A model generated the notes under the pieces. It worked only from the letters and a program-made list of their open reading frames with translations, had not been told where the DNA came from and ran no database searches. Shown here one piece after another: positions 42,470 through 47,594 of a DNA stretch of 64,000 nt (position 1 is the first letter of the stretch; every line of letters begins with the position of its first letter). Where the stretch lies: assembly GCA_029243025.1 (NCBI GenBank), contig JAQWSU010000030.1, positions 186,001 to 250,000 on the forward strand, in the 5' to 3' direction. The stretch comes from Pirellulaceae bacterium (lineage in GTDB: Bacteria; Planctomycetota; Planctomycetia; Pirellulales; Pirellulaceae). The translations under genes and the position numbers were made by a program.

Positions 42470-42769
42470 TTCCTCTCCCGATCGCGGATTGAATTCTGGG
42501 CCGATTCCAAGAATCGGCCCATTTTTATTGCTATGCCAACTTAGCTTGCCAATCATGTCGTCTTGACGCTTGTTTGACGACTCTCTGCACGCCGGTTAGA
42601 TTCGATTGGTCTCAGGGGCGGACGTTGCCTGCGTTGTTGAACAGCGTTTCGCTGGCATGGCGTTAGAAACCGAAGGACGACTGCAGCGGCGAAAATGATT
42701 GACCAAGCCGAAGTACGCAAGTAACGCTTTTGGGGGGCGATTTACTCAAGGCTCTTTTGGGTTCCAGCG
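42470..42769. other. 300-bp interval with terminator and promoter space
   Basis: After the terminator at 42497-42527 there is no gene that I can support until 42770. The remainder is probably the promoter region of the following coiled-coil and PspA-like genes. Confidence 0.5.
42497..42527 (+). terminator. Intrinsic terminator after the thioredoxin gene
   Basis: TGGGCCGATTC and GAATCGGCCCA form a perfect 11-bp GC-rich stem with a CAA loop, followed by TTTTTATT. It begins 27 bp after the stop at 42469 and separates the thioredoxin gene from the PspA/AAA cluster. Confidence 0.92.
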
Positions 42770-43435
42770 ATGTGGGGGACGGCTATCGGATTGCTGGCGA
42801 AATCACCTTGGTCATGGGTTGGTTGGATTGCCGTAGCACTTGGGTTCGGCTCGGTTGTCTGGCGCATGACGGTCGGAGGGCGGGAGTTGGCTGAGCGGGC
42901 CATCATCCGTGTCAAACGGAAGGCAAGTCGCGAGCATCGTGCTTATTTGCGTCAGTTGCAACGCAAGTTGCGTCGTGATCGGGACGCACGCACGGGGGGG
43001 ATGTTGCGAAGTTTGCAGGATCTGTACGGTCGCTTGGATGACATGGAGTTTGATCCCAGCAACCAGCAAAGCTGGCAAATCGAGGTTTTCGGCGAGATTC
43101 GCAATCTCTATCAAGCCAGTTTGGCGGCCTTGGAGCGTTCGTATGAAATGTGGGATCGGGCCAACGAAATGGCCACGGATGAAGCTCGACAGGAGTTGCT
43201 AAACTGGCGTGATGGTGTGCTGCAAGAAGTGAGTCAGAGCGTCACGCAGCTCTCAAAAACGGTTGATGATGTCCAAGCTTCTGTGATGAAAAGCGAACTA
43301 CCGGATAAAGATCTGGCTCAAATGCGTGGGGAACTCGAGCAGGGTTGGGAGGTTGCCCGCGGAATTGAGCATCAGATCGAGCAACTTGAGAGGGAACTCA
43401 AGGGTGTGCGGATAACGTTGCCGGAGCCTTCGTAA
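42770..43435 (+). CDS. Membrane-anchored coiled-coil protein beside the PspA-like gene
   Basis: The 221-residue protein has one N-terminal hydrophobic helix (about residues 13-32, SWVGWIAVALGFGSVVW), then a basic helical stretch (RVKRKASREHRAYLRQLQRKLRRD) and a long helical body with heptad character to the C-terminus. No catalytic motif is present. The basic stretch next to a membrane helix suggests contact with phospholipid head groups. It precedes the PspA-like gene by 182 bp on the same strand and may be the membrane receptor of that protein. I do not recognise a named family, so the function is inferred from its context only. Confidence 0.78.
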   Translation: MWGTAIGLLAKSPWSWVGWIAVALGFGSVVWRMTVGGRELAERAIIRVKRKASREHRAYLRQLQRKLRRDRDARTGGMLRSLQDLYGRLDDMEFDPSNQQSWQIEVFGEIRNLYQASLAALERSYEMWDRANEMATDEARQELLNWRDGVLQEVSQSVTQLSKTVDDVQASVMKSELPDKDLAQMRGELEQGWEVARGIEHQIEQLERELKGVRITLPEPS

Positions 43436-43617
43436 CGCCCCTAGTTTGACCCGTTTATCGATCGCTGCATTGTGTCGAAATTGTTTTTTTTTTAGCATTC
43501 AGGCACTGGGGTTGGTGTATACCAGTTCCCTTGAGTGACCCGTTTGCGATCTAAGCGGTATGATTTCGCCCTCGAGAATGCGGCTGAGACGGCAGTTCGA
43601 AAGCAAAGGAACGAAAT

Positions 43618-44433
43618 ATGTTTAAAGCACTTGGCAAGTATCTTCGTGCGATCGGATACCTATTTACGGGGCGTATTGACGATGCCCGACGAACACTTAG
43701 CACCAATCCAGCCGTTGTAAAGGCGACTTACGATCGAGTCATTGAAGAGAAGACCAAGCGAATCCACCAATACAAAGACGCGGTCGGTGCGATGATTGCT
43801 CAAGAGGAAAAAAAGAAAGCTGCTTTGAAACGATTGACCGAAGAAGTCGCGAAACTCCGCAACCTTCGTGATGGTGCTGCAGCGATGGCACGAAAGACTG
43901 TTGAAAAGTACAACGGTGATATTGAAGCGGTCAAGAACGATCCTGAGTACCTCAAATGTCAGTCGGCCTTCAAAGATTTCAGCTCGAGCCTGAACGAGAA
44001 GGAAACGCATTGTGCGGAACTTGAGGACGACATCAAAGAGTTCGAAACCAACATCACAGGACACAAAACACAGCTACAGTCCTTGCTACGTGAGATCGAC
44101 AAGATTCGCCAAGAGAAGCATGAGACGGTCGCCGACATGTTGACCGCAAAGGAAGAGAAAGAGATCTCTGATATGCTCACCGGCATCAGCCAGGATCGTA
44201 CTCATGAGGAGCTGCAGGAATTACGGGATTTGCGCGATCAGGCGACGGCCACAGCACGCATTTCACGAGAAATGGCGGGCGTTGATACCAAGCGTTCTGA
44301 GGACGAGTTCTTAGAGTACGCCACGCGGGAAACGGCCGATTCGGAATTCGACACGCTGATTGGATTGACGCAGAAAGATTCCGACTCCGGTTCACAGGAA
44401 ACGGCTGATAAAACACAAATCCCAGAATCGTAA
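43618..44433 (+). CDS. PspA/Vipp1-like (ESCRT-III superfamily) coiled-coil protein
   Basis: The 271-residue product is almost entirely alpha-helical. The first 15 residues (MFKALGKYLRAIGYL) form an amphipathic helix of the sort that binds stressed membranes in PspA and Vipp1. A short loop follows (TGRIDDARRTLSTNP), then long coiled-coil helices with the RKTVEKYNGDIEAVK type pattern up to about residue 215. A polar tail with acidic residues ends the protein, comparable to the MIM-like tails that recruit Vps4 in ESCRT-III proteins. AAGGA at 43606-43610 precedes ATG 43618. The next gene, 22 bp downstream, encodes a Vps4-like AAA ATPase. The PspA assignment rests on topology and the N-terminal helix, not on a full match. 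Confidence 0.7.
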   Translation: MFKALGKYLRAIGYLFTGRIDDARRTLSTNPAVVKATYDRVIEEKTKRIHQYKDAVGAMIAQEEKKKAALKRLTEEVAKLRNLRDGAAAMARKTVEKYNGDIEAVKNDPEYLKCQSAFKDFSSSLNEKETHCAELEDDIKEFETNITGHKTQLQSLLREIDKIRQEKHETVADMLTAKEEKEISDMLTGISQDRTHEELQELRDLRDQATATARISREMAGVDTKRSEDEFLEYATRETADSEFDTLIGLTQKDSDSGSQETADKTQIPES

Positions 44434-44454
44434 ACGAACGATACGAAATCTGAA

Positions 44455-46206
44455 ATGACCTACCCATTTTTTTCGCGTTTGGCCGAAATTCTAAATTCGA
44501 ACCAATCTCGAAGCATTATTTTGAGCGGCAACATCTACGATCTGTTTTTTAATGGACAAGGTTATGTGCCGCTGATTCCATTTGTGGCTGAGAAATCGAA
44601 GACCAAAGGATTGATCCGGCTCGTTTACGAGTTGAACGGTCCGATTCGAGCACTCGAAGGCCGTGAGAAGCTGAAGAATGCTTGGATCGCTTGGAAGGCT
44701 GGCGTCGATACCGATACGCTTCTGATCCGTGGGATGAAGAGTCGCGGCGAAAGCGAGCTAGAGATTCTCTCACAGCAGTTCGATCGGCTCGTGCTTGACG
44801 CGATCGGCAATCCGACGCTTGCGCTCGAAGCGCTCCGACAGTTCACGATCTGTTCACGATCGCATCTGTCGGGTGATTTGATGATCTTGATCGAAGCGTC
44901 GGACATGATGATGCCAGCTGGAAGTGGGGACGTCTCGTCACTCAATGACAAACAATTGCATCGGATTGGGATTGTCCAGGATTGGCTATCCGATCCGGCT
45001 TTCATGGACGGCGGAGACTCCGTTATTCTGTTTGCTGAGTCCAAGAGTTTGGTTCATCCTCGGGTCTCAAGACTTCCGCAGGTGCTGAATGTCGAAGTCT
45101 CGTCGCCGACCGCTGAACATCGATTGCACTACATTCAGCATTATTCTCAGCAGGCTCAGTATCCGCCCAAATTTTGGAGCAGCGCGTCCGATTTGGCGGG
45201 ATTTACTGCCGGTTTGTCAATCCACGCCTTGCGACAACTCCTGTTGCGAGCTTCTTACACCCGCGAGCGACTGACGCCCGCTGATGTGGTGGTCAAGGTT
45301 CAGGAGTTCATCCAATCTCAACTTGGCGAGGAGGTCGTCGAGTTCAAAAAACCGACCCATCGTCTCGCGGACGTGAAAGGTAATAATCGTCTTAAAGCTT
45401 TTCTGCAAAGGGAGTTACTGCCCAGGTTTCGAGCTCCCGGGGAGAAAGCATTGGCTGGAGCTGCTGTGGCTGGTCCAATTGGTGGCGGGAAAACGTTCAT
45501 TTTCGAGGCCGTTGCCAGCGAAATGGATGTCCCGGTGCTGGTTCTAAAGAGCATCCGAAGTCAGTGGTACGGCCAAACGGACGTTATCTTTGAGCGATTG
45601 CGTCGGGTTTTGGAAGCGCTGGAAAAAGTTGTTATATTTGTGGACGAAGCGGATACCCAATTTGGCGGTGTAGGAGCTGAAACCCACTCGACGGAACGTC
45701 GACTGACGGGAAAGATTCAAGCCATGATGTCCGATCCGCAGTTGCGGGGGCGAGTCGTTTGGCTGTTGATGACCGCACGAATTCATCTCCTGTCGCCGGA
45801 TATCCGTCGTCCGGGTCGCGTCGGAGATTTGATTATTCCGGTGCTTGACCCGGAGGGAGAGGATCGTAAGGAGTTCGTAACTTGGGTTGCGGAAAGTGTG
45901 TTGGACCAGCCGTCACAGGATGATCTCCGAAGAATTGATGAGTTGACGCCTGGCTATTCGGCTGCCGCTTTCGCTTCCTTGAGATCGCAATTGAAAGGCT
46001 GCGAAGCCCAGAACATTGACGACGTGGTCGGTATTGTCAACGACTTGATGCTACCGTCCATCGAATCAACTCGCCGATATCAGACATTGCAGGCTTTGGT
46101 TAATTGCACTCGCAGGTCACTCCTGCCAGTGCCAGATGCTAACGACCAGGATCGAGAAGGCTGGCACCAGGAAATTCTAGCGCTGGAGGCGCGTGGAATT
46201 CATTGA
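44455..46206 (+). CDS. Vps4-like AAA ATPase with degenerate N-terminal AAA domain
   Basis: The 583-residue protein appears to hold two AAA modules. The first (about residues 15-290) keeps the fold (SGNIYDLFF, LMILIEASDM, SVILFAESK) but has no Walker A. The second is complete: Walker A GPIGGGKT (340-347), pore loop SQWYGQTD (W371-Y372-G373) comparable with the KWMGESE pore loop of Vps4, Walker B VVIFVDEAD (D397-E398), and arginine finger segment RRPGR (451-455). Enzymes of this class pull substrate proteins through a central pore, and Vps4 disassembles ESCRT-III filaments. The gene lies 22 bp after the PspA-like gene and 72 bp before the receiver-ATPase-FHA gene. The degenerate first module may bind cofactors rather than ATP. 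Confidence 0.85.
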   Translation: MTYPFFSRLAEILNSNQSRSIILSGNIYDLFFNGQGYVPLIPFVAEKSKTKGLIRLVYELNGPIRALEGREKLKNAWIAWKAGVDTDTLLIRGMKSRGESELEILSQQFDRLVLDAIGNPTLALEALRQFTICSRSHLSGDLMILIEASDMMMPAGSGDVSSLNDKQLHRIGIVQDWLSDPAFMDGGDSVILFAESKSLVHPRVSRLPQVLNVEVSSPTAEHRLHYIQHYSQQAQYPPKFWSSASDLAGFTAGLSIHALRQLLLRASYTRERLTPADVVVKVQEFIQSQLGEEVVEFKKPTHRLADVKGNNRLKAFLQRELLPRFRAPGEKALAGAAVAGPIGGGKTFIFEAVASEMDVPVLVLKSIRSQWYGQTDVIFERLRRVLEALEKVVIFVDEADTQFGGVGAETHSTERRLTGKIQAMMSDPQLRGRVVWLLMTARIHLLSPDIRRPGRVGDLIIPVLDPEGEDRKEFVTWVAESVLDQPSQDDLRRIDELTPGYSAAAFASLRSQLKGCEAQNIDDVVGIVNDLMLPSIESTRRYQTLQALVNCTRRSLLPVPDANDQDREGWHQEILALEARGIH

Positions 46207-46277
46207 ACAATGTGTCTCGTGTATCTACTGATGCATCGGTTTATGCATTGGTTGCAGGAGGCTGAGGGGTCCTATCC

Positions 46278-47594
46278 ATGCCAACAATTCTTCTCGTGGA
46301 TGATTCCGCCACCGACCGCCGTATGATTGGGGGTGTGTTGGAGCGAAATGGGTTTGCAGTTCGATACGCGGAAAATGGTAGCGGGGCTCTGAAGCAACTT
46401 TCCCGCACACAACCGCAAGCCGTGCTGACCGACATGCAAATGCCTGAAATGGATGGCCTCGACTTGGTCAAGGCGATTCGTTCTCGGTTTCCGGAAGTTC
46501 CCGTGATCTTGATGACGGGGCACGGCAGCGAAACTTTGGCCGCGCAGGCGCTCCAGCACGGAGCAGCCAGCTATGTTCCCAAGTCGCAATTCAACAAGGT
46601 GCTCGTCGATTCCGTCAAGCACGTTTTGGAACTCGCGCGAGGCGATGCAAACTATCGTCGCTTGATTGATCATACTCTGATCAGCGACTTTCAGTTCGAA
46701 TTGCCAAATGACGAAAGCCTGGTTGAACCACTTGTCGCTTTGGTGCAGCAGATGATCAGTGGTTTGCAGACCTGTGATGCTGCGGGACGACTGCAGGCTG
46801 GGGTAGCACTGGAACAAGCTGTGCTCAATGCAATGCACCATGGCAATCTGGAACTAACGTCGCAACAACTCAAGGAAGATTTGACTCGCGAGGAAGGTGA
46901 GCAGTCCATCATTGATCAACGACGTGCAGAGGAGCCGTATCAATCGCGAAAGGTTTTTGTGCGTGTTTTGATCAATCGCGACGAAGCGAGATTTGTGGTT
47001 CGCGATCAAGGCCCCGGTTTTGACGTGCAAAGCAAGCTCGACGTGTCGTTGGGGGACGACGAGAGTGCCGGGCGGGGGCTCGTGCTGATGTGGGGACTCA
47101 TGGACAAGGTGGTTTACAACAACGTGGGCAATGAGGTTGTTTTGGCCAAACGAGGTGATCATCTTGCGCCCGTCGCAACTTCAGATGCCTCCCTTGACGA
47201 AGAGGAAGATGCTGAAAGCAAGGGCGGTCAAATCGAGCCATCCGATGCGGCAGAAATAGGTCAAAAGTTGGGGGAATTGGTTCCCTTGGACGGTAGCAAG
47301 TCGATTGTCTTGACCCAGCCCCGGCTGAGTGTTGGTCGTGACCCTTCCTGCGATATCGTATTGTCGCATTCGGACGTTTCGCACCAACATTGCTTGCTCT
47401 ACATGTACGGGGGATGGTGGTATGTAAAGGATCTTAGAAGTGCCAACGGGACAAGGCTGAACAAGGTGGCCATTGATCAGAAGCGAATCGCACCTGGTGC
47501 GATCTTGATGATCGCCACGCATCAATTCGAAGCTCGCTACAGTCCCTGGGATTTGGGCGCCGTGGGAATTACGCCGCCGGTGGATCCGTTTTGA
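46278..47594 (+). CDS. Receiver - anti-sigma-type ATPase - FHA fusion protein
   Basis: The 438-residue protein joins three signalling domains. Residues 1-120 are a response-regulator receiver (TILLVDDSATD, phosphate acceptor in VLTDMQMPEMDG, VPKS lysine). Residues about 150-290 are a GHKL ATPase of the RsbW anti-sigma type, with the N box EQAVLNAMHHGNLEL, DQGPGF and the G2 box GRGLVLMWG. Residues about 340-430 are an FHA domain (LSVGRDPSCDIVLSHSDVSHQH), which binds phosphothreonine. So one protein could receive a phosphorelay signal, hold ATP or phosphorylate a partner, and read Ser/Thr phosphorylation. It follows the AAA gene and converges, one base apart, with a hybrid histidine kinase, its likely phosphodonor. 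Confidence 0.92.
   Translation: MPTILLVDDSATDRRMIGGVLERNGFAVRYAENGSGALKQLSRTQPQAVLTDMQMPEMDGLDLVKAIRSRFPEVPVILMTGHGSETLAAQALQHGAASYVPKSQFNKVLVDSVKHVLELARGDANYRRLIDHTLISDFQFELPNDESLVEPLVALVQQMISGLQTCDAAGRLQAGVALEQAVLNAMHHGNLELTSQQLKEDLTREEGEQSIIDQRRAEEPYQSRKVFVRVLINRDEARFVVRDQGPGFDVQSKLDVSLGDDESAGRGLVLMWGLMDKVVYNNVGNEVVLAKRGDHLAPVATSDASLDEEEDAESKGGQIEPSDAAEIGQKLGELVPLDGSKSIVLTQPRLSVGRDPSCDIVLSHSDVSHQHCLLYMYGGWWYVKDLRSANGTRLNKVAIDQKRIAPGAILMIATHQFEARYSPWDLGAVGITPPVDPF

Follow-up and report, generated by a model that had tools for sequence, protein, structure and literature searches.

A PspA-type protein and a two-module AAA ATPase are encoded as a conserved, co-inherited pair in a Pirellulaceae bacterium and other bacterial lineages

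In passages of their 2024 mSystems paper, Ravi et al. (PMC11237479) describe bacterial PspA proteins whose genomic partner has two AAA domains, the N-terminal one inactive, and longer operons that add a Snf7 homologue with a transmembrane segment, an ATP-binding cassette (ABC) ATPase, a permease and a PBPB/OmpA protein. They propose ATP-dependent membrane remodelling comparable to that of Snf7 and VPS4, with AEY64321.1 and OGG56892.1 as examples, which we liken to the pair described here by description alone. Canonical PspA-PspF and Vipp1 (Cell 2021, PMC8281802; NSMB 2024, PMC11746142) represent the protein family itself. In the parts of those papers that bear on motors, Liu et al. 2021 treat remodelling of Vipp1 by an external ATPase as uncertain (PMC8281802), and PspA itself is a slow ATPase (PMC11746142). 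In archaea, passages of an mBio 2024 paper (PMC10936438) describe an 'adaptin' ESCRT type whose Vps4-like ATPase has no MIT domain and carries a Cdc48/VAT-like N domain. Among the literature matches listed, no title or opening of an abstract announced an experimental study of a pair like the one in question here, which lies in a 64,000-nucleotide window of the genome of a Pirellulaceae bacterium (assembly GCA_029243025.1).

The window is positions 186001-250000 of contig 30 of a genome of 8.35 Mb, and the locus occupies 228.8-233.6 kb of that contig. Four open reading frames, of 221, 271, 583 and 438 amino acids (aa), lie where the original prediction had placed them; we call them CC1, PSP, AAA and RHF. 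They are separated by 182 bp (CC1-PSP), 21 bp (PSP-AAA) and 71 bp (AAA-RHF), so that PSP does lie just ahead of the ATPase gene as predicted, at 21 bp rather than 22 bp. We read PSP and AAA, with a probability of roughly 0.6, as a bacterial membrane-polymer-plus-motor system in which the ATPase would turn over a PSP coat. The locus is of the kind described by Ravi et al. in its partner types, its inactive first AAA copy and its longer operon, and differs from it in that the window PSP falls under the Pfam PspA cut-off (PMC11237479). The pair and the longer operon are thus already sketched briefly in that work; what we add to those passages is a tail motif, counts of co-inheritance, a change at sensor 1 and a split of the system over two loci.

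To follow the pair across genomes, we used two draws, of 40 relatives and of 294 genomes of the phylum, with the window's own genome in both; among the genomes listed two (G000 and G018) are shared, giving a union of 332. In each draw the genomes with strong PSP and those with strong AAA matches (E < 1e-200) were one and the same set: 9 of the 40 relatives and 10 of the 294 from the phylum, or 17 of the 332 in the union, with zero strong discordant cases. Because the sampled genomes are related to one another, we give these counts, and those of linkage below, without a probability. Weaker matches were also seen. One genome (G079) has a weaker PSP (2.8e-27) and a weaker AAA (2.4e-107), unlinked, and six (G004, G171, G261, G279, G292 and G310) lack PSP while carrying a relative of the ATPase, at E 7e-62 to 8e-110. 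In three of these (G171, G261 and G292) a PspA gene adjoins the ATPase relative, and in G310 the contig stops 193 bases upstream of the ATPase frame. PSP matches in G041 (4e-4) and G259 (7e-5) were taken as chance. A role in cell division was considered and judged unlikely, given how patchily the pair is distributed in both draws.

The linkage of the two genes was examined at 80 AAA loci, mostly from metagenome-assembled genomes (MAGs) which, by record title, belong to Planctomycetes, Verrucomicrobia, Poribacteria, Sumerlaeota, Hydrogenedentota, Acidobacteria and others; the nearest relative is a Planctomycetaceae MAG whose AAA is 84% identical. PSP was found at 56 of the 80 loci, on the same strand in all 56 and no more than 500 bp upstream in 28. 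The 24 loci without PSP are mostly cut short by contig ends. Linkage is not universal, since five loci (L017, L019, L025, L031 and L032) lack PSP despite at least 6 kb on either side, and L084 lacks it with 5.3 and 8.0 kb. When the genomes of 13 of the 24 PSP-less loci were searched, PSP was found elsewhere in 12, and only the genome of L011, a MAG labelled Nealsonbacteria, had none. The pairing is conserved well past planctomycetes, and PSP and AAA form a conserved, co-inherited pair of a PspA-type protein and its putative motor.

In several phyla the pair sits in a longer operon with transporter and OmpA-type genes. The complete order, seen in six loci (L037, L040, L047, L050, L051 and L054), is OmpA-like, VWA, PBP-OmpA (a periplasmic-binding protein, PBP, with an OmpA domain), CC1, PSP, substrate-binding-like, permease, ABC ATPase and AAA. 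Pfam domains are firm for VWA (4.4e-13), OmpA in the PBP-OmpA protein (4.5e-15), the permease (1.3e-11) and the ABC ATPase (1.1e-33). The NMT1 match of the PBP-OmpA protein (0.0014) is slightly under its cut-off, the first OmpA-like gene matches OmpA weakly (0.011), and the second binding-protein-like gene, which has no Pfam match, is named from its similarity to the PBP-OmpA protein. In L086 (5447-7249) a 600-aa protein, whose Pfam matches do not go below E 0.03, is encoded between the PSP genes and AAA; genes of like size occupy the same position in L078, L083 and L089. In the window's genome, a second locus (L167 3886-12269, equal to about 133.9-142.3 kb of contig 30 of G000) lies about 87 kb from the window locus and carries OmpA-like, VWA, PBP-OmpA, a fuller CC1, binding-protein-like, permease and ABC ATPase genes, with PSP and AAA absent. 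With the operon set minus PSP and AAA elsewhere on the same contig, the system is split in two here, and the window holds one of the parts.

Strong PBP-OmpA matches (E < 1e-150) were found in 7 of 9 pair-bearing relatives and 5 of 10 pair-bearing phylum genomes, and never without the pair in these draws; weaker matches without the pair occur in G120 (5e-82) and G198 (4e-25). This distribution bears on an alternative in which the ATPase acts as a chaperone that helps to assemble the envelope complex (the ABC transporter, PBP-OmpA, VWA and other proteins), and PSP recruits it as a static scaffold or adaptor at the membrane and is not a polymer to be disassembled. Every genome with a strong PBP-OmpA has the pair (7/7 among the 40 relatives and 5/5 among the 294 phylum genomes), the longer operon joins the pair with the transporter, VWA and OmpA-domain genes, and the second locus retains those genes here, all as a chaperone would have it. 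In contrast, 7 of the 17 pair genomes (G015, G023, G118, G150, G182, G300 and G326) have no strong PBP-OmpA, and PspA is also the partner of a more distant ATPase form. Because the pair occurs without a strong PBP-OmpA in those seven genomes, PSP and AAA are the core of the system and the transporter is an accessory. We consider such a chaperone unlikely, while regarding it as the best of the competing accounts.

The reading as a polymer with its motor takes PSP to be a PspA-type protein, as the original prediction did. PF04012 was the best Pfam match of the window PSP (E 0.0031), and in an alignment of the window PSP with 35 relatives (A1, 36 members) it matched 18 of the 36 at E <= 0.01, with 2.5e-8 as the best value, whereas the family in second place matched 5 of 36. 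Profile-profile alignment with hhalign of the PSP family against eight canonical PspA proteins, E. coli PspA included, gave a collinear alignment of 210 columns that extends over all of the helices (E 7e-5, probability 63), compared with probabilities of 0.5 and 0.9 for the controls, CC1 against PspA and CC1 against PSP. The AlphaFold2 (AF2) model of PSP has helices at residues 2-16, 19-29, 31-97, 109-192 and 196-247 (mean pLDDT 79.8, pTM 0.53), a predicted layout that is that of PspA, with alpha-0, a long hairpin and C-terminal helices. When this model was searched with Foldseek, ranks 1-7 were all Vipp1 (best E 1.5e-3). The predicted amphipathic character of the N-terminal helix also held up: residues 2-17 have a hydrophobic moment of 0.59, a value reached in 0.4% of 5000 shuffles. 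The strongest argument is genomic. In the three genomes where a PspA gene accompanies a more distant ATPase form, the two genes are directly adjacent and on the same strand, the ATPase forms score 229-237 bits on the ATPase family profile (A3), and the PspA proteins score 52.4, 38.1 and 33.2 bits on PF04012, two passing the 33.9-bit cut-off and one falling just short. Together, these comparisons support PSP as a divergent PspA/Vipp1 relative, and hence as a putative member of the ESCRT-III superfamily. That membership would come only through PspA, and the match to Snf7 models that might have been expected did not appear: the window PSP has 19 Pfam matches at E <= 1, and Snf7 is not one of them. 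As for PspA proteins in general, they exceed the Pfam cut-off in 41 of 149 phylum genomes; the window's genome has no such protein and gave no PF04012 match at E <= 0.001.

Other comparisons argue against this assignment or fail to separate PspA from other proteins. On its own the window PSP scores 17.6 bits against the PF04012 cut-off of 33.9, and phmmer of the same sequence against the PDB found no PspA chain at E <= 5. The PSP family profile did reach Vipp1 chains in the PDB (0.011), which speaks for PspA, with a short coiled coil of a kinase as an equally good match (0.010). No Foldseek match reached E 0.001, and Smc arms took ranks 8 and 9 (E 0.025). In VIA-align, E. coli PspA had Z 11.7 at rank 46, and many long hairpins of unrelated proteins did as well or better, so that PspA is inseparable there from generic hairpins. 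PSP might accordingly have no kinship with PspA and be a coiled-coil protein that serves a CDC48-like unfoldase as adaptor or substrate, particularly as coiled coils can match one another by chance. This is hard to reconcile with the collinear alignment over the full length, the top Foldseek ranks and the Pfam matches across the family, or with partners of the distant ATPases whose scores are above the PspA cut-off or close to it, and we consider it improbable.

If PSP is the polymer, its C-terminus may be where the motor takes hold. The last helix is followed by a linker of varying sequence and length, predicted with low confidence (residues 249-271 of the window PSP have pLDDT < 50 in the AF2 model), and then by a motif, (L/I/V)P(E/L/V). 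Of 62 distinct full-length PSPs (>= 255 aa), 61 have the motif among their final 6 residues, as do all 22 PSPs at 70% non-redundancy, compared with averages of 0.6 and 0.3 for shuffled tails of the two sets. The sole full-length exception (L039) has LPE followed by four further residues. Eight short poribacterial PSP paralogues (153-246 aa), encoded near full-length copies, are without the motif. Such shortened copies, one to three of them beside one full-length PSP, were seen at the poribacterial loci L078, L083, L086, L088 and L089. The tail resembles the MIT-interacting motifs (MIMs) of ESCRT-III, a resemblance to be read as a lead and not as a test. We regard the motif as a candidate signal for recruitment of the motor.

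AAA has the two modules that had been predicted. The second half matches PF00004 (E 4.6e-15) and holds all of the motifs named beforehand: Walker A (GPIGGGKT, 340-347), the W-x-G pore loop (W371-Y372-G373), Walker B (VIFVDEAD, 393-400) and RRPGR (451-455). A motif scan found no Walker A in the N-terminal half. When the two halves were compared by hhalign, 80 columns of the N-terminal half aligned with the lid end of the C-terminal half (probability 73.5, E 3e-5), and because of this we take the first half to be a degenerate AAA module. The ATPase thus has a first module without Walker A and a PspA-type protein as its genomic partner. Scored with a second-module profile of the family, the distant forms linked to PspA reach 131-141 bits, forms from Bacillales plasmids 73-78, CDC48 22-46 and FtsH 27. 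A tree of AAA modules has long branches, contains no Vps4, covers 12 of the family's 34 rows and places a degenerate row (mid_L144) inside the family; we used it only for the apparent separation of the family from CDC48 and FtsH, with which the profile scores agree. In L144 (3979-5655, G133) a second AAA paralogue is recognised by profile and by PF00004 and has no Walker A or B in a pattern scan; it is probably a catalytically dead relative.

The original prediction called this ATPase Vps4-type, which our comparisons do not support. The classical AAA domain is there, with Walker A, Walker B and a pore loop as in Vps4/CdvC. MIT and Vps4_C are absent from the 22 Pfam families matched by any of the 34 ATPase members at E <= 1, in a scan whose HMMER filters discard most matches above E 0.1. 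Against NCBIfam the window AAA scored 58.6 bits for CDC48, 40.5 for CdvC, 37.9 for PAN and 30.0 for FtsH; the CDC48 model matched 34 of 34 members and CdvC, the second best, 33 of 34. The best PDB matches were two-domain chains of the CDC48/VCP type, and a katanin (mei-1) chain and a 438-aa p97 chain scored alike (53.2 and 49.7 bits). Nor are W-x-G and RRPGR confined to Vps4, since a Sphingomonas CDC48 has KWYG in its second module and RRPGR in its first. On this evidence AAA is probably not a Vps4, and membership of that family was rejected. We give very little credence to an archaeal origin in which a genuine ATPase of the Vps4 family came over along with an ESCRT-III protein, for which the classical AAA module with its aromatic pore loop, the second place of CdvC and the katanin score might speak, given the higher and complete CDC48 matches, the two modules, the missing MIT and Vps4_C domains and a partner whose best family is PF04012 rather than Snf7.

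The likeness to ESCRT-III with Vps4/CdvC (passages of the mBio 2024 paper, PMC10936438) is one of plan: a protein of the superfamily is encoded just before a classical AAA ATPase. A short conserved C-terminal motif behind a flexible linker is a further likeness. The differences are the lack of MIT and Vps4_C, the two AAA modules, the PspA-type partner and the bacterial host. In the same source, the archaeal 'adaptin' ATPase resembles ours in having no MIT and in being preceded by a gene weakly similar to PspA, and differs in being archaeal and in having winged-helix partners; this comparison is by description alone (PMC10936438). PspF, a transcription activator in the canonical system, is not known as a remodelling motor, unlike the putative motor of PSP (PMC8281802, PMC11746142, in the parts that concern it).

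The neighbours of the pair had been suggested as a possible receptor, upstream, and a possible control unit, downstream. CC1 belongs to a conserved family, and the window copy is divergent (20-32% identical to 21 relatives), shortened and missing part of the membrane region; in the sister species, tblastn gave only a 69-residue match of 38% identity. Its AF2 model (pLDDT 82.4) has no clear fold in the PDB, with IncA as the top Foldseek match (E 0.022) and CdvB2 at E 0.26. These matches, with the low hhalign probabilities given above, lend no support to CC1 as a second ESCRT-III protein, whereas passages of Ravi et al. name the transmembrane gene of such operons a Snf7 homologue (PMC11237479). 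RHF does have the predicted domains: a receiver (1.1e-26), HATPase_c_2 (3.1e-14) and FHA (1.9e-16). Its HATPase_c_2 domain is presumably RsbW-like. Of 80 other loci, 1, from the same genus, has an end-to-end match to RHF next to the pair, some loci being too short downstream to tell. The domains of RHF are thus as predicted, while both roles are weak, and neither protein qualifies as a general receptor or control unit of the system. A hairpin ahead of the locus is only suggestive as a terminator, the scan overall having found 5 hairpins against 6.0 expected from shuffles, no excess. Coordinates are collected in Table 1.

Table 1. Features of the locus, in positions of the window
Feature	Position	Strand	Remarks
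Terminator-like hairpin ahead of the locus	42497..42521	+	11-pair stem, then T run
CC1, helical protein with N-terminal membrane segment	42770..43435	+	Family often upstream of PSP; copy divergent, shortened
PSP, putative divergent PspA/Vipp1-type (ESCRT-III superfamily) protein	43618..44433	+	Profiles, hhalign, Foldseek, AF2
PSP residues 2-16, predicted amphipathic helix alpha-0	43621..43665	+	AF2 model, hydrophobic moment
PSP residues 268-270 (IPE), conserved C-terminal tail motif past variable linker	44419..44427	+	Alignment; AF2 confidence
AAA N-terminal degenerate AAA-like module, without Walker A	44455..45354	+	Boundary set by eye
AAA C-terminal module with Walker A and B, pore loop and arginine-finger region	45355..46206	+	PF00004 match
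AAA second region of homology, TARIHLLSPDIRRPGR	45772..45819	+	Ala at the CDC48/FtsH Asn position in 34/34 aligned members
RHF, receiver - HATPase_c_2 - FHA regulator	46278..47594	+	3' of AAA; association only in this genus

Taking the pair as a membrane polymer with its motor, we propose the following arrangement. As a PspA/ESCRT-III-type hairpin with an amphipathic first helix, PSP would coat the cytoplasmic face of the inner membrane, as its family suggests. By analogy with classical AAA proteins, the first module of the ATPase ring may form a non-catalytic layer for docking or assembly, and the second may thread protein by way of its aromatic pore loop. The ATPase would grip the (L/I/V)P(E/L/V) tail of PSP and remove or remodel subunits, leading to ATP-driven turnover of the coat. 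Gene order suggests that the polymer would serve an envelope complex made up of an ABC transporter, its periplasmic-binding protein and proteins with OmpA and VWA domains, a role that we propose for many lineages and, through the second locus, for the window's genome. The system would be analogous in plan to ESCRT-III/Vps4 without being a member of the Vps4 family, and the mechanism is one that we infer.

Beyond the weak scores of PSP, three further points count against this arrangement. All 34 aligned members of the ATPase family have T-A-R where CDC48 and FtsH carry T-N-R. The replaced Asn is that of sensor 1, and because every member has Ala there, hydrolysis may be slow or altered. ATPases encoded on large plasmids of Paenibacillaceae (Bacillales; L158-L161) are 23-24% identical to the window AAA over 57-72% of its length and align with both halves of it, and no PspA is annotated within 5 kb of them in gene tables that are incomplete; motors of this kind would thus not be confined to PspA partners. 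Finally, the tail motif could serve assembly of the polymer instead of recruitment of the motor. A bolder version would make the pair a bacterial functional equivalent of ESCRT-III/Vps4, built from PspA and a CDC48-like double ATPase, with the tail as an independently evolved counterpart of the MIM that is read by the inactive first module, and with a fuller form that remodels the membrane under an OmpA-anchored ABC transporter. We put this version forward tentatively, as possible and rather doubtful.

A PspA-type protein with an AAA ATPase of its own in 17 of 17 genomes bears on the question, raised for Vipp1 and PspA polymers in passages of Liu et al. (PMC8281802), of whether an external motor acts on them. 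The tail is short, conserved and removable, which makes the question of remodelling by a motor directly testable. The pair is tied to a gene set for a transporter and OmpA-domain proteins of the envelope, and it offers a possible independent origin for comparison with Vps4.

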